A DNA stretch of 64,000 nt from Dermatophilaceae bacterium Sec6.4 (GTDB lineage: Bacteria; Actinomycetota; Actinomycetes; Actinomycetales; Dermatophilaceae): assembly GCA_039636865.1 (NCBI GenBank), contig CP144172.1:1426001-1490000 (forward strand), written 5' to 3'. Below, piece by piece: positions 8,989-41,363 of the stretch. Numbering within the stretch: the first letter of the stretch is position 1; every line of letters starts with the position of its first letter. Below the pieces are notes generated by a model. It saw only the letters and a program-made list of their open reading frames with translations. It was not told where the DNA came from and made no database searches. Made by a program: the position numbers and the translations under genes.

Positions 8989-9004
8989 GGTCGATGAACG
9001 GGGC

Positions 9005-9035
9005 GTTACTCGCCAGTAACCGGGTGACGTAGAAT
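9005..9035 (+). promoter_or_regulatory. Inverted repeat (possible operator) and -10 box upstream of etfBA
   Basis: GTTACT (9005-9010), CGCC, AGTAAC (9015-9020) form a perfect 6-4-6 inverted repeat. TAGAAT at 9030-9035 is a good -10 hexamer, so the repeat sits where the -35 element would be. The shape resembles operators of TetR-type regulators of lipid catabolism; that identification is inference. Confidence 0.5.
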
Positions 9036-9081
9036 TTTCAGCAGAAGTCGTGAGTACCGCGTCAAAACGAAGGGCTAGGCC

Positions 9082-32318: not shown

Positions 32319-32993
32319 ATGACGACCATCGCAATTTTTGGCGGCCACGGCAAAGTGGCGCTCGCCCTGTCCAGAATGCTGGTCGCTGCCGGCCACGACG
32401 TGCGGTCGATCTTTCGTAACGAGGAACACGTGCCCGACGTGCTCGCTACCGGAGCCAAGCCGGCGGTCGGCGACCTGGAGAAGCTGGATGTGCCCGCGAT
32501 GACCGAGATGCTGAACGGTGTCGACATCGTGGTGTGGGCGGCCGGTGCGGGCGGCGGCAGCGATGCGCGGACCTACGCCGTCGACCGCGATGCCGCGATC
32601 CGCAGCATGAATGCGACGGTGGCGGCCGACATCACGCGGTACGTCATGGTGTCGTACTTCGGCGCCGGGCCGGATCACGGCGTACCGCATGACAACTCGT
32701 TCTTCGCCTACGCCGACGCCAAGGCGGCCGCAGACGAGTATCTGCGCGGCACGGGACTGGATTGGACCATTCTGGGACCGAGCACGTTGACCGACGACGA
32801 CGCGACCAGCCGTATCGAGCTCACCGTTGTTGGTCCTGAGTCCACGGATTCCACGATCGAAGGGTCGTCGGTCAGCCGCGCGGACGTCGCAGCGGTGATC
32901 GCCGCAGTCGTCGACCTGAAGGCCTCCTGCGGCAAGGTGATCGACTTCAACAACGGACCGACGCCGATCGGCGAGGCGCTGGACGCTTTATGA
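32319..32993 (+). CDS. NAD(P)-binding protein (atypical SDR, YhfK-like)
   Basis: 224 residues from ATG 32319. N-terminal Rossmann motif IAIFGGHGKVALALSRML, then VVWAAGAGGGS and SFFAYADAKAAADEYL. Tyr and Lys are in the AYADAK context, typical of atypical SDRs that act as NAD(P)-linked isomerases or sensors (NAD(P)H-binding, NmrA-like). The substrate is unknown. It lies before the ilvB leader region on the same strand. Confidence 0.8.
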   Translation: MTTIAIFGGHGKVALALSRMLVAAGHDVRSIFRNEEHVPDVLATGAKPAVGDLEKLDVPAMTEMLNGVDIVVWAAGAGGGSDARTYAVDRDAAIRSMNATVAADITRYVMVSYFGAGPDHGVPHDNSFFAYADAKAAADEYLRGTGLDWTILGPSTLTDDDATSRIELTVVGPESTDSTIEGSSVSRADVAAVIAAVVDLKASCGKVIDFNNGPTPIGEALDAL

Positions 32994-33035
32994 GCACGGT
33001 GACTGTTCGGCGACGGGGTGCACGAGCTCGGTCGA

Positions 33036-33071
33036 TTTCACATAGTGAGATTCGCGTCTCAGTATGTTGAC
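33036..33071 (+). promoter_or_regulatory. Two-part operator-like element A (ilvB)
   Basis: TTTCACATAGTGAGA (33036-33050) is a near-palindrome. A second copy, TCTCAGTATGTTGAC (33057-33071), starts 21 bp later, two helical turns. The same arrangement occurs at 36868 and 39505, and a weaker copy at 37177, all near branched-chain amino-acid genes. The second copy overlaps the -35 hexamer TTGACG. An IclR-type regulator such as LtbR/NdgR, known for leucine genes in actinobacteria, is a candidate by inference only. Confidence 0.6.
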
Positions 33072-33095
33072 GCTGAAGTAACTCCTGGCGAAACT
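33067..33095 (+). promoter_or_regulatory. ilvB promoter (-35 TTGACG, -10 GAAACT)
   Basis: TTGACG at 33067-33072, a 17-bp spacer, then GAAACT at 33090-33095. The predicted transcription start, about 7 nt later, coincides with GTG 33102, the first codon of the leader peptide. Confidence 0.5.
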
Positions 33096-33101
33096 TGCCG
33101 T

Positions 33102-33140
33102 GTGGCCAGTCTCCTAGTACTTCCAAGGCACGCCCGCTGA
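33102..33140 (+). CDS. Leader peptide of ilvB (MASLLVLPRHAR)
   Basis: GTG start, 12 codons, TGA stop. Codons 4-7 are CTC CTA GTA CTT (Leu-Leu-Val-Leu); CTA, GTA and CTT are rare in this GC-rich sequence, so they would sharpen sensing of charged Leu and Val tRNA. The run ends 4 nt before a long hairpin (33127-33161), and the stop lies within the hairpin's 5' arm. A terminator follows at 33160-33196. The predicted mRNA start is at the GTG, so translation would begin without a leader. A longer reading from GTG 33045 is in frame but would begin upstream of the predicted promoter. BCAA attenuation is known for ilvBNC of Corynebacterium. Confidence 0.62.
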   Translation: MASLLVLPRHAR

Positions 33141-33198
33141 CAACCCGTCGGTGAGCGTGCCAGCCCTCAATGCCTGTCAAGGCTGGGGGCCTTTTTCA
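33127..33198 (+). terminator. ilvB attenuator: pause hairpin and terminator
   Basis: GGCACGC (33127-33133) pairs with GCGTGCC (33155-33161); the inner CGCTGAC/GTCGGTG adds seven pairs, two of them G-U, around the loop AACCC. Next, CCAGCC (33160-33165) pairs with GGCTGG (33181-33186), followed by GGGCC and a T5 tract at 33192-33196. The two stems share two bases. I do not see a strong antiterminator pairing by eye. ilvB starts 74 nt after the T tract. Confidence 0.62.
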
Positions 33199-33269
33199 TG
33201 CCACGTTCGGAAGGCTCACGAAGCCTGCACCAGATTCAGGTACGGCCGGATTCGCAACGCGAGGACACC

Positions 33270-35126
33270 ATGACCAACGTGAAGCAGCAATCGTTCGCTC
33301 CAGTGCCGACGGCTCCCGCCGGTGCGGGCAAGGTGACGCCGGCCGTGCCGGTCACGCCGGTAGAGGTGCTCACCGGAGCGCAGAGCCTGGTGCGCACCCT
33401 CGAACTGCTCGAGGTCGATACTGTCTTCGGGATTCCCGGCGGGGCAATTCTTCCGGCGTACGACCCGCTGATGGATTCCACCAAGGTGCGTCACATCCTG
33501 GTGCGTCACGAGCAGGGCGCCGGGCACGCGGCCCAGGGATACGCCGCAGCCAGCGGCAAGGTCGGTGTGTGTATGGCGACCAGCGGACCCGGCGCGACCA
33601 ACCTGGTCACCGCGATCGCCGACGCCTACATGGATTCGGTGCCGATCGTGGCCATCACCGGGCAGGTGGCGTCCCGGGTGATCGGGACGGACGCCTTCCA
33701 GGAAGCGGATATCCGTGGCATCACGATGCCGATCACCAAGCACAACTACCTGATCACCAAGTCAGCGGACATCCCCCGTGCACTGGCTGAGGCGTTCCAC
33801 ATTGCAGGCACGGGTCGACCCGGTCCGGTACTGGTCGACATCAGCAAGGACGCCCTGGTCGGCACGGCCGAATTCAGCTGGCCGCCGGTGTTCGATCTGC
33901 CCGGATACCGCCCGGTCACCAAACCGCATCACAAGCAGATTCGCGCTGCTGCCGAGCTGATCGCCGGCGCTGCGCGTCCGGTGCTCTACGTGGGTGGCGG
34001 AGTGATCCGCGCGGAGGCTGCCCGTGAACTCGCGCAGCTGGTCGAGTTGTCCCAGATCCCGGTGGTCACCACGTTGATGGCACGGGGCGTCTTCCCCGAC
34101 AGTCACCCCTTGCACCTGGGCATGCCGGGTATGCACGGATCAGTGGCAGCCGTGACGGCACTGCAGAAAGCCGATCTGCTCATCGCGCTGGGCACCCGGT
34201 TCGATGACCGGGTGACCGGCGAGATCTCTTCGTTCGCTCCCGAGGCGAAGGTGATCCACGCGGATATCGACCCCGCCGAGATCTCCAAGAACCGGGCCGC
34301 CGACGTGCCGATCGTGGGGGACTGCAAAGAAGTCATCAGCGAGCTGATCATGTCGATACGCGCCGATCAGGAAGCCGGTCGCGGCGGTGACTACGCCGAA
34401 TGGCGCACCCGCACGCAGGGGTGGGCCGCTACGTTCCCGCTCGGTTACACCCCGGACGACAACGCCACGGCAATCGCGCCGCAGTACGTCATCGAGCGGA
34501 TCGGCGCACTGACCGGACCGGAAGCCGTCTACGCCTCGGGTGTCGGGCAGCATCAGATGTGGGCCGCTCAGTTCGTGCAGTACGAGCGCCCCAACGCGTG
34601 GCTGAACTCCGGCGGACTCGGCACCATGGGGTACGCAGTGCCGGCCGCGATGGGCGCGAAGGTGTCCCAGCCCGACCGCGTGGTGTGGGCGATAGACGGT
34701 GACGGATGCTTCCAGATGACCAATCAGGAGTTGGCGACCTGCGTCATCAACAACATCCCGATCAAGATCGCCATCATCAACAACTCCAGCCTCGGCATGG
34801 TGCGGCAGTGGCAGACGCTGTTCTACAACCAGCGTTACTCCAACACCGACCTGAACACCTCGGTAGGTTCGCGGGTGCCCGATTTCGTCAAACTGGCGGA
34901 CGCGTACGGGTGCGTCGGTCTGCGCTGCGAGCGCGCCGAGGACGTCGACGCGACGATCCTGAAGGCGCTGGAGATCAACGACGCGCCGGTCGTGATCGAC
35001 TTCGTGGTCGAACGCGACGCGATGGTCTGGCCGATGGTCCCCTCGGGTGTCAGTAACGACATGGTGACGGTGGCGCGGGCGATGACCCCCGTCTGGGACC
35101 GCGACAGTGACGACGGCCAAGAATGA
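33270..35126 (+). CDS. ilvB: Acetolactate synthase large subunit
   Basis: 618 residues from ATG 33270 with GAGG at 33261-33264; an in-frame extension to 33198 would enter the attenuator and is not used. TPP enzyme: [10 protein letters not shown], catalytic Glu in [20 protein letters not shown], central FAD domain, and the TPP/Mg motif [15 protein letters not shown] with [12 protein letters not shown]. It condenses pyruvate with itself or 2-oxobutyrate, the first common step of valine, leucine and isoleucine synthesis. First gene of ilvB-ilvN-ilvC, with an attenuator and shared operator upstream. Confidence 0.96.
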
Positions 35127-35175
35127 CCGCCACGAGTAGAGCACTGCAGGCATTCAGGCGACGAGGAGAACTCTG

Positions 35176-35688
35176 ATGGCGCGGCACACCCTTTCGGTGC
35201 TGGTGGAGAACAACCCCGGCGTCCTGGCACGTATCGCGGGCCTGATCTCGCGGCGCGGATTCAACATCGACTCGCTGGCAGTCGGCCCGACGGAGCACCC
35301 CACGATGTCGCGGATGACGATCGTGGTCGATGTCGAGCAGGTCGCCCTGGAGCAGGTCACCAAGCAGCTGAACAAGCTCATCGAGGTACGCAAGGTGGTC
35401 GAGCTGGAGTCGGATGCTTCGGTGCAGCGCGAGATCGTGCTGATCAAAGTGCGCTGCGACGCCGGGAACCGAGCAGAAATCGTGCAGATCGCCGAGTTGT
35501 TCCGGTGCAATGTGGTGGACGTGGCCAACGACTCGCTGGTCATCGAAGCGACCGGCACACCCGGCAAGCTGACGGCACTGCTGAATATTCTGGAGCCGTA
35601 CGGTGTGCGCGAGCTGGTGCAGTCGGGGTTGGTGGCCGTGGGTCGGGGCGGTAAATCCATTACCGACCGCTCCCGGCGCTCGGCCTGA
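35176..35688 (+). CDS. ilvN: Acetolactate synthase small (regulatory) subunit
   Basis: 170 residues, GAGGAG before ATG 35176. N-terminal ACT domain (HTLSVLVENNPGVLARIAGLISRRGFNIDSLAVGPTE) that binds valine for feedback control, and a C-terminal domain that activates IlvB. Second gene of ilvBNC, 49 bp after ilvB. Confidence 0.95.
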   Translation: MARHTLSVLVENNPGVLARIAGLISRRGFNIDSLAVGPTEHPTMSRMTIVVDVEQVALEQVTKQLNKLIEVRKVVELESDASVQREIVLIKVRCDAGNRAEIVQIAELFRCNVVDVANDSLVIEATGTPGKLTALLNILEPYGVRELVQSGLVAVGRGGKSITDRSRRSA

Positions 35689-35717
35689 GTTGACCGCGAG
35701 CCACCCGACACACTTGA

Positions 35718-36785
<1,068 letters not shown>

Positions 36786-36794
36786 GTTACCACC

Positions 36795-36844
36795 ATTTGG
36801 ACATGCTCAACGGGGCACATATGCCCCGTTGAGCATGTCCAAAT
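36795..36844 (+). terminator. Perfect 23-bp inverted repeat after ilvC (loop CATA)
   Basis: The arms at 36795-36817 and 36822-36844 are exact complements around a 4-nt loop; the centre reads GGGGCACATATGCCCC. It starts 10 bp after the ilvC stop. The stem would terminate transcription, but there is no T tract, and such perfect arms are longer than needed. It shares the core ACATATG with palindromes at 47962-48039 and 51289-51320. Confidence 0.7.
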
Positions 36845-36867
36845 CGGGAGAGTCAGTCCGACTGCTT

Positions 36868-36903
36868 TCTCAAAATGTGAGATGCGGGTATCGAAGTGTG
36901 GAT
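36868..36903 (+). promoter_or_regulatory. Two-part operator-like element B (after ilvC)
   Basis: TCTCAAAATGTGAGA (36868-36882) is almost a perfect palindrome. The second copy, TATCGAAGTGTGGAT, is at 36889-36903. Spacing is the same 21 bp as in elements A and C. TATTCT (36913-36918) is a possible -10 box, giving a transcript start near 36925. Confidence 0.6.
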
Positions 36904-37034
36904 ACCCGGGCCTATTCTCGATCCAGGTTCGGCGCCGACCGGCGTCCCCAGACTCACCAGCCCACCTGACTGTCATCAGCGGTTACCCCCGCATCGACGG
37001 CGCGCGGCTCACGCATCGATTACCTGGGAGAGAC

Positions 37035-37097
37035 ATGTCTGAGAATCAGCTCGAAATGCAACGCGCTCTGCAAGAATCAATGGATCTGCGCGACTGA
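37035..37097 (+). CDS. 20-codon ORF (possible microprotein or leader)
   Basis: ATG 37035 is preceded by GGGAG at about 8 nt and encodes MSENQLEMQRALQESMDLRD, then TGA. Residues fit an amphipathic helix. There is no run of Leu, Ile or Val codons, so it is not a classical attenuator peptide. It lies between operator element B and a strong terminator, where serA stands in related genomes. It could be a microprotein of the branched-chain regulon, a leader of leuB, or fortuitous inside a small RNA of about 215 nt (36925-37140). Confidence 0.4.
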   Translation: MSENQLEMQRALQESMDLRD

Positions 37098-37114
37098 CGA
37101 CGCGGATACGAAGC

Positions 37115-37145
37115 AAGCCCCGGACATCTGGCCGGGGCTTCTTCA
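37115..37145 (+). terminator. Strong intrinsic terminator upstream of leuB
   Basis: AAGCCCCGG (37115-37123) pairs with CCGGGGCTT (37132-37140) around 8 nt, followed by CTTCTTC-type pyrimidines. It separates the 20-codon ORF from the leuB promoter. Confidence 0.78.
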
Positions 37146-37176
37146 TGTTCCGGACGCATGACCGTCGGCTCGGATG

Positions 37177-37225
37177 TCTTGCCATGCGAGATCGCTGTTT
37201 CGAATGCCAAGACAGTGATTAGCGT
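37177..37225 (+). promoter_or_regulatory. Weaker operator-like element D and leaderless leuB promoter
   Basis: TCTTGCCATGCGAGA (37177-37191) and TTTCGAATGCCAAGA (37198-37212) match elements A-C in layout (second copy 21 bp after the first) but with more differences. TAGCGT at 37220-37225 is 8 nt before ATG 37234, and no ribosome-binding site is present. Confidence 0.45.
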
Positions 37226-37233
37226 GCGCGGGT

Positions 37234-38310
37234 ATGACGATCAACCGCACGGATCCCTCAGCAGTCTCATTGCCCGACGCGATCAACCTGGCGGTCATCG
37301 GCGGTGACGGGATCGGCCCGGAAGTCGTTGCCGAGGGCTTGAAGGTGCTGGACGCGGTAACGACCGCGCGCGTTTCGCGCAACGAATACGACCTCGGCGC
37401 GCGTCGCTGGCACGCGAGCGGCGAGATTCTCCCGGACTCGGTCGAGACCGAATTGCGTGGCCATGACGTCATCCTGCTGGGTGCGATCGGCGACCCGAGC
37501 GTGCCGAGTGGGGTCCTGGAGCGCGGCCTGCTCCTGAAGTTGCGGTTCGATTTCGACCACTACATCAATCTGCGCCCGGCGAAGCTGCTTCCGGGTGTCC
37601 GCTCACCGCTCGATGTGGACAGCGTCGCTCCCGGTGGGATCGACTTCGTGGTCGTGCGGGAAGGGACCGAGGGCCCCTACACCGGCAACGGCGGAGCGCT
37701 GCGCGTCGGTACGCCGGGCGAGCTGGCTACCGAGGTGAGCGTCAATACCCGCTTCGGCGTCGAGCGGGCGGTGCGTGACGCGTTCGCCCGTGCCCAGGCC
37801 CGCCCACGCAAACACCTGACGTTGATCCACAAGCACAACGTGCTGGCCTACGCAGGTCACCTGTGGCGCCGCACCTTCGAAGAGGTGGGTGCGCAGTTCC
37901 CCGATGTGACGACCGCCTACTGCCACGTGGACGCGGCCACCATCTACCTGGTGACCGATCCAGGCCGGTTCGACGTGATCGTCACCGACAACCTCTTCGG
38001 AGACATCGTCACCGACCTGGCAGCCGCGGTGACCGGGGGTATCGGCCTGGCCGCCTCGGGCAATATCAACCCCGAAGGCACCGCGCCGTCGATGTTCGAG
38101 CCGGTTCACGGGTCAGCACCCGACATCGCCGGCCAGGCCAAGGCCGACCCCACCGCGACGATCCTGTCGGTCGCCATGCTCCTGGAGCACCTGGGGCGGC
38201 CAGACGAAGCCGCCCGGGTGCACGCAGCGGTCGCAGCCGACCTCGTCTCGCGCGGTGCTGTCCCGCGCTCGACCAGTCAGGTCGGCGACGCCATTGCCGC
38301 TGGAGTATGA
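37234..38310 (+). CDS. leuB: 3-isopropylmalate dehydrogenase
   Basis: 358 residues. Beta-decarboxylating dehydrogenase: [18 protein letters not shown], the Arg-containing substrate loop [34 protein letters not shown], catalytic Lys in LIHKHNVL, and metal-binding Asp in [16 protein letters not shown]. It oxidises 3-isopropylmalate in leucine synthesis. Residues 1-18 precede the fold. Start ATG 37234, likely leaderless. ilvE follows after 85 bp. leuA, leuC and leuD are not in the window. Confidence 0.95.
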
Positions 38311-38395
38311 GCGTGCGGCGTAGCCTGATCCCACCCCAGCCCCAGTAACGCGCGTCACACCCAGCACGCGCGGCACGCACTCCGAGGAGACCGAC

Positions 38396-39490
38396 ATGGC
38401 CCTGACCTTCGACGTGACCGAGCGCCCCGACCCCGTCAGCGACCAGCAGCGCGCCGCCGTGCTGGCCGACCCGGGCTTCGGTAACTACTTCACCGACCAC
38501 ATGGTCACGGTGACGTGGACGAAGGGTGTCGGTTGGCACGATGCGCGCGTCACCCCCTACGGTCCGATCGCCATCGATCCTTCTGCGGCTGTGCTGCACT
38601 ACGCGCAGGAGATCTTCGAGGGGATGAAGGCCTACCGGCATGCCGACGGCTCGGTCTGGACCTTTCGGCCGGAGCGGAACGCTGCCCGATTCGCCCGCAG
38701 CTCTGCCCGGATGGCGTTGCCGGTCATGGACGAGACGGACTTCATCGATTCGTTGCGGGCGCTGGTTACCGTCGACAAGTCGTGGGTGCCCGAGGCCGAT
38801 GGCGCCGAAACCTCGCTCTACCTACGTCCGTTCATGTTCGCGTCCGAGCCGTTCCTCGGGGTTCGTCCCTCGAACGTGGTGACGTTCTGTGTGATCGCCT
38901 CACCGGCCGGCGCGTATTTCAGCGGGGGCGTCAAGCCCATCTCGCTGTGGATCTCCACAGATTTCGCGCGTGCGGGCGACGGGGGAACCGGTGCAGCCAA
39001 GTGCGGTGGCAACTACGCGTCCTCGCTCGCGGGCCAGCTCGAAGGTAATGAGCAGGGCTGTGACCAGGCCGTCTTCCTGGACTCCTCGACGCATACCTAC
39101 ATCGAGGAGCTCGGCGGGATGAATCTGTTCTTCGTCTACCGCGATGGTCGCCTGGTCACGCCCTCGCTCACCGGATCGATTCTGGAAGGGGTGACCCGCG
39201 ACTCGATTCTCACGCTGGCCAAAGAGCTGGACCTTCGTCCCGAAGAACGCCGTATTCCGATCCAGGAATGGAAGGACTGCGCCGCGTCCGGGGAGATCGC
39301 GGAGGTGTTCGCCTGCGGCACCGCGGCCGTCATCACACCCGTCGGTGAACTGAAATGGGATGGTGGATCGTGCGATCATCGCCGCGCGGGACACACCGAT
39401 GAGGTGGCCCTGAAGCTGCGGTCGGCACTACTGGACATCCAGTACGGCCGAGTGGAGGACACCCGCGGCTGGATGACGCGGCTCGCCTGA
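38396..39490 (+). CDS. ilvE: Branched-chain amino acid aminotransferase
   Basis: 364 residues with GAGGAG 7 nt before ATG 38396. Fold-type IV PLP enzyme: YAQEIFEGMKAYRHADGSVWTFRPERNAARFARS, the PLP Lys within AAKCGGNYASSLAGQLEGNEQGCDQ, ELGGMNLFFV and FACGTAAVITPVG. It makes valine, leucine and isoleucine from 2-oxoacids with glutamate. It lies between leuB and the cimA leader, so it serves the final common step of the pathway encoded here. Confidence 0.95.
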   Translation: MALTFDVTERPDPVSDQQRAAVLADPGFGNYFTDHMVTVTWTKGVGWHDARVTPYGPIAIDPSAAVLHYAQEIFEGMKAYRHADGSVWTFRPERNAARFARSSARMALPVMDETDFIDSLRALVTVDKSWVPEADGAETSLYLRPFMFASEPFLGVRPSNVVTFCVIASPAGAYFSGGVKPISLWISTDFARAGDGGTGAAKCGGNYASSLAGQLEGNEQGCDQAVFLDSSTHTYIEELGGMNLFFVYRDGRLVTPSLTGSILEGVTRDSILTLAKELDLRPEERRIPIQEWKDCAASGEIAEVFACGTAAVITPVGELKWDGGSCDHRRAGHTDEVALKLRSALLDIQYGRVEDTRGWMTRLA

Positions 39491-39504
39491 CGACGCAAGA
39501 GATT

Positions 39505-39540
39505 GTTCACATGGTGAGACGATCGTGTCGAAGTGTGGAC
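39505..39540 (+). promoter_or_regulatory. Two-part operator-like element C (cimA)
   Basis: GTTCACATGGTGAGA (39505-39519) plus TGTCGAAGTGTGGAC (39526-39540), with the same 21-bp offset as elements A and B. From position 3 of the first copy onward it matches A or B at most columns. Confidence 0.6.
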
Positions 39541-39564
39541 GGGAAAAGCCTGAGGCGAGATAGT
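39536..39564 (+). promoter_or_regulatory. cimA promoter (-35 TGGACG, -10 GATAGT)
   Basis: A 17-bp spacer separates TGGACG (39536-39541) from GATAGT (39559-39564), exactly as in the ilvB promoter. The predicted start falls on GTG 39571. Confidence 0.5.
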
Positions 39565-39570
39565 CGGCGG

Positions 39571-39621
39571 GTGATGACCTTCCGGTTCGCAGCCACCGCT
39601 GCGACGACGATTACCGACTAG
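39571..39621 (+). CDS. Leader peptide of cimA (Thr/Ala-rich)
   Basis: GTG ATG start, then codons reading MMTFRFAATAATTITD and TAG. Five Thr, four Ala and one Ile (ATT, a rare codon here) in 16 residues. Thr- and Ile-rich leaders are the hallmark of attenuation in isoleucine-related operons, which suits citramalate synthase. The GTG is at the predicted transcription start, so the peptide would be translated from a leaderless RNA. A small stem (CCGAC 39614-39618 / GTCGG 39625-39629) and a terminator with a T6 tract follow. Which amino acid is sensed is uncertain. Confidence 0.5.
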   Translation: MMTFRFAATAATTITD

Positions 39622-39644
39622 CGCGTCGGACCACCCGGCGCGCG

Positions 39645-39671
39645 ACCTCCCGTTACCTCGGGAGGTTTTTT
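39645..39671 (+). terminator. cimA attenuator terminator
   Basis: ACCTCCCG (39645-39652) and CGGGAGGT (39659-39666) pair around TTACCT, followed by a T6 tract (39666-39671). It lies 85 bp before cimA and after the leader peptide, where it would stop transcription unless prevented. GCGCG (39621-39625) and CGCGC (39640-39644) could form a competing stem. Confidence 0.78.
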
Positions 39672-39755
39672 GCTCCCCGGGCATCACCCACGCACCGGAG
39701 GCGAGCGCCGGCCAGAGGTTTCACCGCACCTCGCCAGCACCCGGAAAGGCCCGCG

Positions 39756-41363
39756 ATGAGCGGTTTCGACCTGTACGACACCACCTTGCGTGACGGCGCA
39801 CAGCAGGAAGGTCTGCAGTTGTCCGTCGATGACAAGCTGTCGATCGCCCGGCTGCTGGACGAGCTCGGTGTCGGCTTCATCGAAGGTGGCTGGCCCGGTG
39901 CCAACCCCAAGGACACACTCTTCTTCGCGCGAGCCGTCACTGAACTATCGCTGCAGAATGCGCGCCTGGCGGCGTTCGGCAGCACCCGGCGAGCCGGTAT
40001 GAGCGTCGACGAGGATCCGCAGGTGGCCGCACTGCTCGCGGCCGGCACGCCGGTCGTAACCCTGGTCGGCAAATCGCACCCCCGCCACGTGACCGACGCG
40101 TTGCACACCACCCTCGAGGAAAATCTCGCGATGATCGCGGACACCGTCGGCTATCTCGTCTCGGCCGGCCGGGAGGTCTACCTGGATGCCGAACACTATT
40201 TCGACGGATTCGGTCACGACCACGGGTACCCGCTGGAGGTTGTACGGGTTGCGACTCAGGCCGGCGCAACGGCTGTCGCTCTGTGCGACACGAACGGCGG
40301 GATGCTGCCGCACGACGTCGAGACCATCGTTACTGAAACCATCCTGGCCACGGGGGCGCGGGTGGGCATCCACGCGCACAACGACAGCGGTTGTGCCATC
40401 GCCAACAGCATCGCTGCTGTCCGGGCCGGCGCGATGCATCTGCAGGGGACCGTCAACGGCTACGGCGAACGCACCGGCAACGCCGACCTGATCGCGGTGG
40501 TCACCAATCTGCAGCTCAAGCTCGGTATGCAACTGGTGACCGGTGACCAACTGGCCGGCGCCCATCACGTCAGCCATGCGGTCAGCGAGATCACCAACAT
40601 TGCGCCGTTCGAGCGGGCGCCGTATGTCGGATCGAGCGCCTTCGCGCACAAGGCCGGTCTGCACGCCAGCGCGCTGCGGGTGGATCCCGACCTCTACCAG
40701 CACATCGACCCGGCGCTCGTGGGCAATCGGATGCGCACCCTGGTCTCGGACATGGCAGGGCGCGCGAGCATCGAGTTGAAGGGCCGCGAGCTCGGGATCG
40801 ACCTCGCGGGTCATCCGGAACTGCTGACCAGGGTGCTGAACCGGGTGAAAGAACTGGAATGCGCGGGGTGGAGCTTCGAGGCCGCCGATGCGTCGTTCGC
40901 GCTGCTGTTGCACGAAGCGCTGCACGGTTCGCCCGCGTCATTGTTCGAAGTGCAGAGCTGGCGGGTGGTGACCGCCGGCGAACCTGATCGCGGGGCACTC
41001 TGCGAGGCCGACGTCGTGCTGCAACTCGCAGGCGGCAGCGCGAGCGCGAAGGGGGCGGGCAACGGCCCGATCAACGCCCTCGACCACGCGCTGAGGGGGG
41101 CGCTGATGCCGACTTTCCAGCAGTTGAAGACGTTCGAACTGATCGATTTCAGGGTGCGCATGCTGGACAGCCAGCAGGGCACGGATGCCACGGCCCGCGT
41201 GATGATCGACACCACGGACGGCGAGCGCACCTGGACCACGGTCGGGGTCGCGCCGAACCTGGTGCACGCCAGTTGGTTGGCACTGGTCGACTCCTTCACC
41301 TTCGGCTTGCTGTATCCGGACACAACCACCGCCTCGATGTCCTATCCTGCCAAAGCGATGTGA
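39756..41363 (+). CDS. cimA: Citramalate synthase
   Basis: 535 residues. DRE-TIM metallolyase: LYDTTLRDGAQQEG, FIEGGWPGANPKD, HAHNDSGCAIANSIAAV (metal-binding His pair), GTVNGYGERTGNADL and AHKAGLHASAL. The C-terminal LeuA-type allosteric domain (about 400-525) is present. The signature FEGGWPGANPKD and overall length match CimA, which condenses acetyl-CoA with pyruvate to start the threonine-independent route to isoleucine. Alpha-isopropylmalate synthase is less likely from these motifs. Preceded by leader peptide and attenuator. Confidence 0.9.
   Translation: MSGFDLYDTTLRDGAQQEGLQLSVDDKLSIARLLDELGVGFIEGGWPGANPKDTLFFARAVTELSLQNARLAAFGSTRRAGMSVDEDPQVAALLAAGTPVVTLVGKSHPRHVTDALHTTLEENLAMIADTVGYLVSAGREVYLDAEHYFDGFGHDHGYPLEVVRVATQAGATAVALCDTNGGMLPHDVETIVTETILATGARVGIHAHNDSGCAIANSIAAVRAGAMHLQGTVNGYGERTGNADLIAVVTNLQLKLGMQLVTGDQLAGAHHVSHAVSEITNIAPFERAPYVGSSAFAHKAGLHASALRVDPDLYQHIDPALVGNRMRTLVSDMAGRASIELKGRELGIDLAGHPELLTRVLNRVKELECAGWSFEAADASFALLLHEALHGSPASLFEVQSWRVVTAGEPDRGALCEADVVLQLAGGSASAKGAGNGPINALDHALRGALMPTFQQLKTFELIDFRVRMLDSQQGTDATARVMIDTTDGERTWTTVGVAPNLVHASWLALVDSFTFGLLYPDTTTASMSYPAKAM

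Follow-up and report, generated by a model that had tools for sequence, protein, structure and literature searches.

What controls the branched-chain amino acid genes ilvB, ilvC, leuB and cimA of Dermatophilaceae bacterium Sec6.4, and what else lies under that control? We have analyzed a stretch of 64,000 nt of its genome (contig CP144172.1, positions 1,426,001 to 1,490,000; the window), in which similar 36-bp elements begin at 33036 (ilvB), 36868 (after ilvC), 37177 (leuB) and 39505 (cimA). A sequence-only reading had taken these as two-part operators of one cooperatively binding regulator, with the site after ilvC acting in the RNA. We find that the elements are real operators, most likely those of the IclR-family regulator NdgR/LtbR to judge from their sequence. 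They represent a two-part variant of a type already described. Downstream of the site after ilvC lies a conserved micro open reading frame (micro-ORF) that had been missed, and which in many relatives has a leader resembling the LEU element of leuA. Taken as a whole, NdgR/LtbR operators together with a stand-alone micro-gene that has a LEU-type leader in many relatives is the explanation that we favor, and we consider it probable.

Sequence and layout of the four elements

The four elements align over 36 bp without gaps, as had been claimed, and the leuB element is indeed the weaker one. The strong sites at 33036, 36868 and 39505 have pairwise identities of 23, 24 and 25 of 36, and 37177 has 13, 18 and 14 identities with these three. 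Matches to the 12 fixed positions of TCTCANANNGTGAGA number 11 at ilvB, 12 after ilvC, 10 at cimA and 8 at leuB, falling to 7 of 12 in each of the second copies that begin 21 bp downstream.

The predicted operator of ilvB (33036..33071, + strand) has a palindrome at 33036-33050 and a half-site at 33057-33071 that enters the −35 hexamer TTGACG (33067-33072). A weak candidate −10, GAAACT (33090..33095, + strand), follows after a 17-nt spacer. The predicted cimA operator (39505..39540, + strand) has the same arrangement, its second half entering the −35 TGGACG (39536-39541), with a 17-nt spacer before GATAGT. The earlier statements that the second copy covers the −35 at both genes, and that the spacing to the −10 is identical, were therefore correct. 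The strongest site is the predicted operator of the micro-gene after ilvC (36868..36903, + strand), with a candidate −10, TATTCT, at 36913..36918 (+ strand); a sigma-70 consensus scan of 36780-37260 detected no promoter. These −10 boxes, like that of leuB, were read from the sequence.

The leuB element (37177..37212, + strand) is a weak two-part predicted operator, scoring 11.3 bits at 37181-37205. By eye, what is better kept in relatives is not 37177 but TTTCGAATGCCAAGA at 37198-37212 (+ strand), over the leuB promoter. The candidate −10, TAGCGT (37220..37225, + strand), lies only 8 nt 5′ of the leuB ATG, so that the leuB mRNA is probably leaderless. Its TAG is kept in four of five distinct relatives (L086/L005, which are alike, L087, L088 and L089; not L091).

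The elements carry the motif found upstream of leuC

A symmetric 15-bp matrix was trained only on the palindromes 5′ of leuC in 27 relatives, our genus being excluded; all 27 loci have one. When the 63,986 positions of the window were scored with this matrix, 36868 came out on top, and 33036 took rank 3, 37177 rank 14 and 39505 rank 20. The second rank, 19492, falls within the ligA coding region. We also ran a two-part sequence model, made from 14 sites of relatives and none from the Sec6.4 genome itself, on that whole genome, scoring 150 of 1182 first-pass candidates. Its top four matches are 36868 (expectation value E = 3.3e-5), 33036 (3.9e-4), 39505 (1.7e-3) and the leuC-ndgR region (0.17), and there are six in all at E ≤ 10, the last two at E = 0.65 and 1.9. 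This model is not wholly independent of the window sites, as it includes their orthologs from G001 and G002, members of the same genus; the leuC-ndgR site was absent from the training set, and its recovery agrees with the expectation of a match near leuC and an ndgR-like gene. On the matrix ranks and the whole-genome scan, chance was rejected as the source of the elements.

The published consensus KTYCRSMWYSYGRRM is matched at 14 of 15 positions at ilvB and cimA, and at 13 of 15 after ilvC and at leuB. Yet 206 positions of the window reach at least 13 of 15 on the two strands, so the consensus discriminates poorly and was dropped as a search motif in its IUPAC (International Union of Pure and Applied Chemistry) form.

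In the Sec6.4 genome leuC (G000:C2:3078849-3080213, minus strand) is followed by leuD, read by eye, and an IclR-family gene is divergent from it (L001:2965-3720; PF01614, IclR_C, and PF09339, HTH_IclR, both above cut-off). By its position and domains this gene is in the place expected of ndgR/ltbR. The intergenic region between the two contains the palindrome TCTCGCTTGCTGAGA, and the leuC-ndgR intergenic motif TCTCAGCAAGCGAGA scores 17.0 bits on the leuC-trained matrix. A divergent IclR gene at leuC is equally a feature of NdgR of Streptomyces coelicolor and LtbR of Corynebacterium glutamicum (PMC4340878). NdgR of S. coelicolor binds ilvB, leuB, ndgR-leuC and ilvD by chromatin immunoprecipitation sequencing (ChIP-seq), and 18 of its 19 bound regions contain a 15-bp imperfect palindrome, ilvB, leuB and ndgR-leuC among the sites so described (PMC4340878). 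In that species leuA is weakly bound by NdgR and lies outside the ChIP-defined regulon. Tandem sites with 18-22 nt between centers have been predicted for IclR regulators in 94 orthologous groups (PMC8222616). Given these precedents the operators are of a known kind, and most likely the landing sites of NdgR/LtbR. They differ from the known NdgR/LtbR sites in that the arms are mostly TCTC/GAGA rather than GTCC/GGAC, in the half-site over the −35, in having cimA and the micro-gene as putative targets, and in giving no match at leuA. A search of open-access text found no paper treating NdgR together with citramalate or cimA.

We then scored relatives with a matrix of the three strong window sites, as an ungapped 36-bp pattern ending in the −35, and counted scores above 20. 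Upstream of ilvB the two-part form, ending TTGAC or TTTGAC, is present in nine of 29 other loci; L138 would be a tenth, with 20.2 in a different register. G001, G002 and G020 clearly have the site after ilvC, while G005 falls at the borderline (19.8). The cimA site is restricted to the genus, being found in two of 24 other cimA loci with one weak partial match (L182, E = 0.61).

A conserved micro-ORF follows ilvC

The micro-ORF MSENQLEMQRALQESMDLRD has 20 codons plus stop (37035..37097, + strand), with GGGAGAG 5′ of its ATG. A terminator-like hairpin (37115..37140, + strand) follows 17 nt past its end. In the relatives whose loci were displayed, leuB is likewise preceded by this ORF. A DNA pattern for its core matched 66 of 186 genomes of the family, once each, and the reversed-pattern control matched none; one of the 66 (G015) has Thr for Ser, lies on a contig other than that of leuB and may be due to chance. 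A stricter pattern at the level of the order, demanding a stop immediately after the core, matched two of 297. By profile search of a sample of the class, the micro-ORF is found in 89 of 246 genomes at E ≤ 0.01 (73 at E ≤ 1e-4) and in 35 of 104 genera. Among named leuB loci, 46 of 80 have it at E < 1e-6. These include 40 of 41 in Streptomycetaceae (Streptomyces, Kitasatospora, Streptantibioticus) and none of 16 in Nocardia, Rhodococcus, Mycobacterium, Mycolicibacterium, Williamsia and Dietzia; all these named loci extend at most 6.5 kb on each side.

The codons are under purifying selection at the protein level. For 39 distinct sequences from Streptomycetaceae the ratio of nonsynonymous to synonymous change (pN/pS) is 0.17 in frame, compared with 1.8 and 4.1 in the other frames, and ungapped identity is 0.90 in the core, declining to about 0.3 beyond 60 nt 3′ and beyond 90 nt 5′. 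The conserved residues are ALQESMDLRD, and the Streptomyces form has the C-terminal sequence AAAALQRALDRRDNGGSTGH. Searching Pfam and NCBIfam with the micro-ORF gave no credible match, the four matches obtained (E = 0.05-0.17) being at chance level. Searches of the open-access literature by the peptide and by S. coelicolor locus names yielded no paper, and those on small proteins and the LEU element showed nothing on this ORF in titles and the opening lines of abstracts, which does not establish absence from print. A comparable small ORF is trpM (SCO2038) of S. coelicolor, whose product modulates tryptophan biosynthesis (PMC7042404), and which is likewise tied to an amino acid pathway; trpM has experimental support, whereas the micro-ORF is predicted from sequence. 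We infer that the micro-ORF is translated and functional.

Is the micro-gene also under NdgR control in relatives? Outside the genus the best matrix match of a micro-ORF locus lies 60-600 bp 5′ of the micro-ORF in 35 of 58 cases, where length alone would predict 17.5%, and one of the top three does so in 45 of 58, although the loci are related rather than independent and some of the matches are low-scoring. In Streptomyces-like genomes the matrix match is TCTCAGATAGTAGGA, identical in all seven loci (L249, L252, L253, L255, L256, L260 and L261) and 204-257 nt before the micro-ORF. It differs from the site of other families, and a longer flanking stretch is alike in the three Streptomyces-like loci displayed.

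A LEU-type leader precedes the micro-ORF in many relatives

The LEU element was described in 2005 at leuA and in one transposase gene (PMC1262725). We made a covariance model from 28 leuA leaders, L286 and L289 of the 30 leuA loci having been dropped for an anchor pattern mismatch. With E ≤ 0.002 as the limit, the model recovers 43 of 69 micro-ORF loci, the best at 1.7e-11; the 69 include genome G014 twice, and 62 of them lie outside the Streptomyces-like group, all 43 matches being among these. The lowest E in 48 control loci (ilvB, leuC and cimA) was 0.018. The match is upstream of the micro-ORF on the same strand in the 35 matched loci with a mapped micro-ORF start. The hairpin is overlapped by an ORF starting with ATG or GTG in 34 of these 35, and in 33 this ORF has neighboring codons for Val, Ile or Leu, as in MRFVLILRCRDGA or MTRRLVLIASRGESG.

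In the alignment of the hairpin, which was fitted to the model, 28 cells have changed on both sides, and none of 500 shuffles reached the covariation score. The hairpin loop can pair with a downstream strand to form a pseudoknot. For 42 leaders the mean helix score is 6.40 compared with 5.39 on permutation, the observed value being reached in none of 500 permutations, and the pair types switch together (GTCAGC/GCTGAC, GGTCGGC/GCCGACC, GGCTGGC/GCTGGCC). The far end of the pseudoknot lies 17-28 nt past the hairpin in 39 of the 42, and at 14, 37 and 41 nt in the others.

The micro-ORF leaders of relatives therefore resemble the LEU element of leuA in having a short upstream ORF (uORF), a hairpin and a pseudoknot, and differ from it in standing before the micro-ORF near leuB (PMC1262725). 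The uORF codons are Val, Leu and Ile in the micro-ORF leaders, whereas leuA has a run of Leu codons (PMC1262725); leuA of S. lividans has the related uORF MRFGLLLLSCRGEGL (PMC8079986). Of all that is reported here, it is the micro-gene and its LEU-type leader for which we found no earlier description.

Proposed mechanism and its alternatives

NdgR/LtbR, encoded divergently from leuC, would bind all four elements. It would sit on the 15-bp palindrome about two helical turns 5′ of the −35, and in the two-part sites possibly also touch the half-site over the −35, from where it could hinder or help RNA polymerase; the regulation may have either sign, and binding may or may not be cooperative. The operator after ilvC would drive a stand-alone micro-gene, consisting of the 20-codon ORF with its own terminator and yielding a small peptide. 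In many relatives the micro-gene also has a LEU-type leader, which like that of leuA combines a hairpin and a pseudoknot with a short uORF, here containing codons for Ile, Leu and Val. Operator and leader would then tie expression of the micro-gene doubly to the supply of branched-chain amino acids, and the peptide would have a role in their metabolism. In our own genus the operator is retained and the leader is undetectable.

A number of results weigh against this explanation. The second copy is a half-site running into the −35 and not a palindrome, so that cooperative binding to two full sites is not supported; a single regulator, most likely NdgR/LtbR, is supported by the shared palindrome, the divergent IclR gene and the genome scan. 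leuA, where a match had been predicted, has no two-part site at E ≤ 10 in the Sec6.4 genome (G000:C2:2795118-2796797) among the 150 of 1182 candidates scored. In S. coelicolor the ChIP-seq table (PMC4340878) has no peak between the two taken as ilvB and leuB, and the Streptomyces-like matrix site is weak (9.8 bits); NdgR control of the micro-gene is consequently not supported in that species. The pN/pS of 0.17 for the family set is biased downward since the search pattern fixed the core residues, and the remaining set has 0.41. For the LEU hairpin, the fitting of the alignment to the model has to be allowed for, and the number of further pair types is unexceptional, being matched by 197 of 500 shuffles. 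Base pairing between the codons of the leader and the ribosome site of the micro-ORF is not significant (48 of 500 permutations reach its score), and sequestration of the Shine-Dalgarno sequence was accordingly rejected as an established property of these leaders. Finally, 26 of the 69 micro-ORF loci, including all seven Streptomyces-like ones, that of the window and those of its two genus mates, have no LEU-type element at E < 0.01, and the model has no match near 36.9 kb in the window.

The half-site might be nothing but a conserved −35 region, with NdgR binding a single palindrome. This is a serious contender, which we think somewhat less probable than its opposite. The second copies at the three strong sites are poor palindromes, ranking 352, 667 and 1017 on the leuC-trained matrix (that of leuB ranks 49), and some relatives, such as L136 with GTCCATATAGCGAGA..TTGAC, lack a second copy but have the palindrome at the same distance from TTGAC. 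The nearest relatives, on the other hand, have a second copy with the full left half, TCTCACATTGTTGAC or TCTCGAAGTGTTGAC, and the offset of 21 bp, on the same face of the helix, falls within the 18-22 nt predicted for many IclR regulators (PMC8222616), although in our elements the second copy is degenerate. Could the palindrome instead serve a different regulator? The identity of NdgR rests on genome position and motif, IclR-type palindromes resemble one another and the published consensus is degenerate. But the same palindrome marks the region 5′ of leuC in all 27 relatives, which in Sec6.4 is the leuC-IclR intergenic region, and NdgR binds both ilvB and leuB in S. coelicolor (PMC4340878), making another regulator improbable.

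The ORF after ilvC could also be a leader peptide of leuB, with stalled translation governing read-through of the terminator at 37115-37140. It is upstream of leuB and ends just before that hairpin, and leaders of such a kind are carried by actinobacterial branched-chain operons at ilvB and leuA (PMC1262725). However, past the terminator there is a weak operator belonging to leuB itself, with a candidate −10, the conserved residues of the micro-ORF include no run of Ile, Leu or Val codons, and the micro-ORF has a LEU-type leader of its own in the 43 loci. Its relation to leuB is also variable. L250 and L258, which belong to one genus, have the micro-ORF between serA and leuB but inverted with respect to both. 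In L293, which its peptide marks as Streptomyces-like, it is separated from leuB by an opposing ORF of 524 codons, and the gene preceding it is one that we take to be pruA. The same-strand structural gene directly downstream that defines a classical attenuator is thus missing in L250, L258 and L293, and in 17 of 40 loci of Streptomycetaceae leuB is about 1.7 to 6.4 kb away. We regard the leader-peptide explanation as unlikely, if marginally less so than a different regulator; by its sequence context the micro-ORF looks like a gene in its own right and not a leader of leuB. In G088 the gene after the micro-ORF (L297:3738-5579) looks by eye like ilvD, and leuB comes next.

What might the stand-alone micro-gene do? 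It could be a conserved and apparently unnamed actinomycete gene of the ilv-ser-leu region, under NdgR operators and often with a second LEU copy, encoding a micro-protein of 20-44 residues with an ALQxxxDxRD core that is made on shortage and acts as a functional regulator of a branched-chain enzyme or pathway; we find the case for and against this evenly balanced. The operators would enlarge a regulon already described and, in this family, mark it with a sharp two-part signature. As for the micro-gene, it is a conserved component of the branched-chain region in Streptomyces and many other actinomycetes, antibiotic producers included, that Pfam and NCBIfam do not match, and the second LEU set before another gene opens the question of leucine sensing to comparison and test.

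Other features of the region

leuB (3-isopropylmalate dehydrogenase; 37234..38310, + strand) and cimA (citramalate synthase; 39756..41363, + strand) were assigned by NF002898 and TIGR00977 respectively, both above cut-off. Just 5′ of the operator at 36868 there is a short terminator-like hairpin (36844-36861), besides a long inverted repeat at about 36800-36845 after ilvC. The leader of the micro-ORF in the window has no notable fold (z-score −0.71). The ilvB leader (about 33127-33197) contains two hairpins, GGCACGC..GCGTGCC and CCAGCC..GGCTGG plus a T run; it has no Rfam match and, by eye, no clear branched-chain leader peptide. The stretch that separates cimA from its operator has a short ORF, MTFRFAATAATTITD (39574-39621), then a terminator-like hairpin at about 39645-39672, and these are a possible leader of cimA. 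A scan of 32900-40000 with Rfam gave only two matches, both under the gathering scores.

An Rfam scan of six related loci found only cobalamin riboswitches, elsewhere in the loci; in Actinomadura two of these (L065:5676-5866 and L082:6152-6341) are upstream of leuB on the opposite strand. L065 also has a match to the LEU-type model just upstream of cimA (8996-9070, E = 0.0034), so that LEU-like elements may precede a third gene. In the leuA leaders (L263-L292) a −35-like hexamer GTGGAC and −10-like boxes CATAC/CTAC recur by eye 5′ of the uORF, and resemble the promoters of cimA and the micro-gene.

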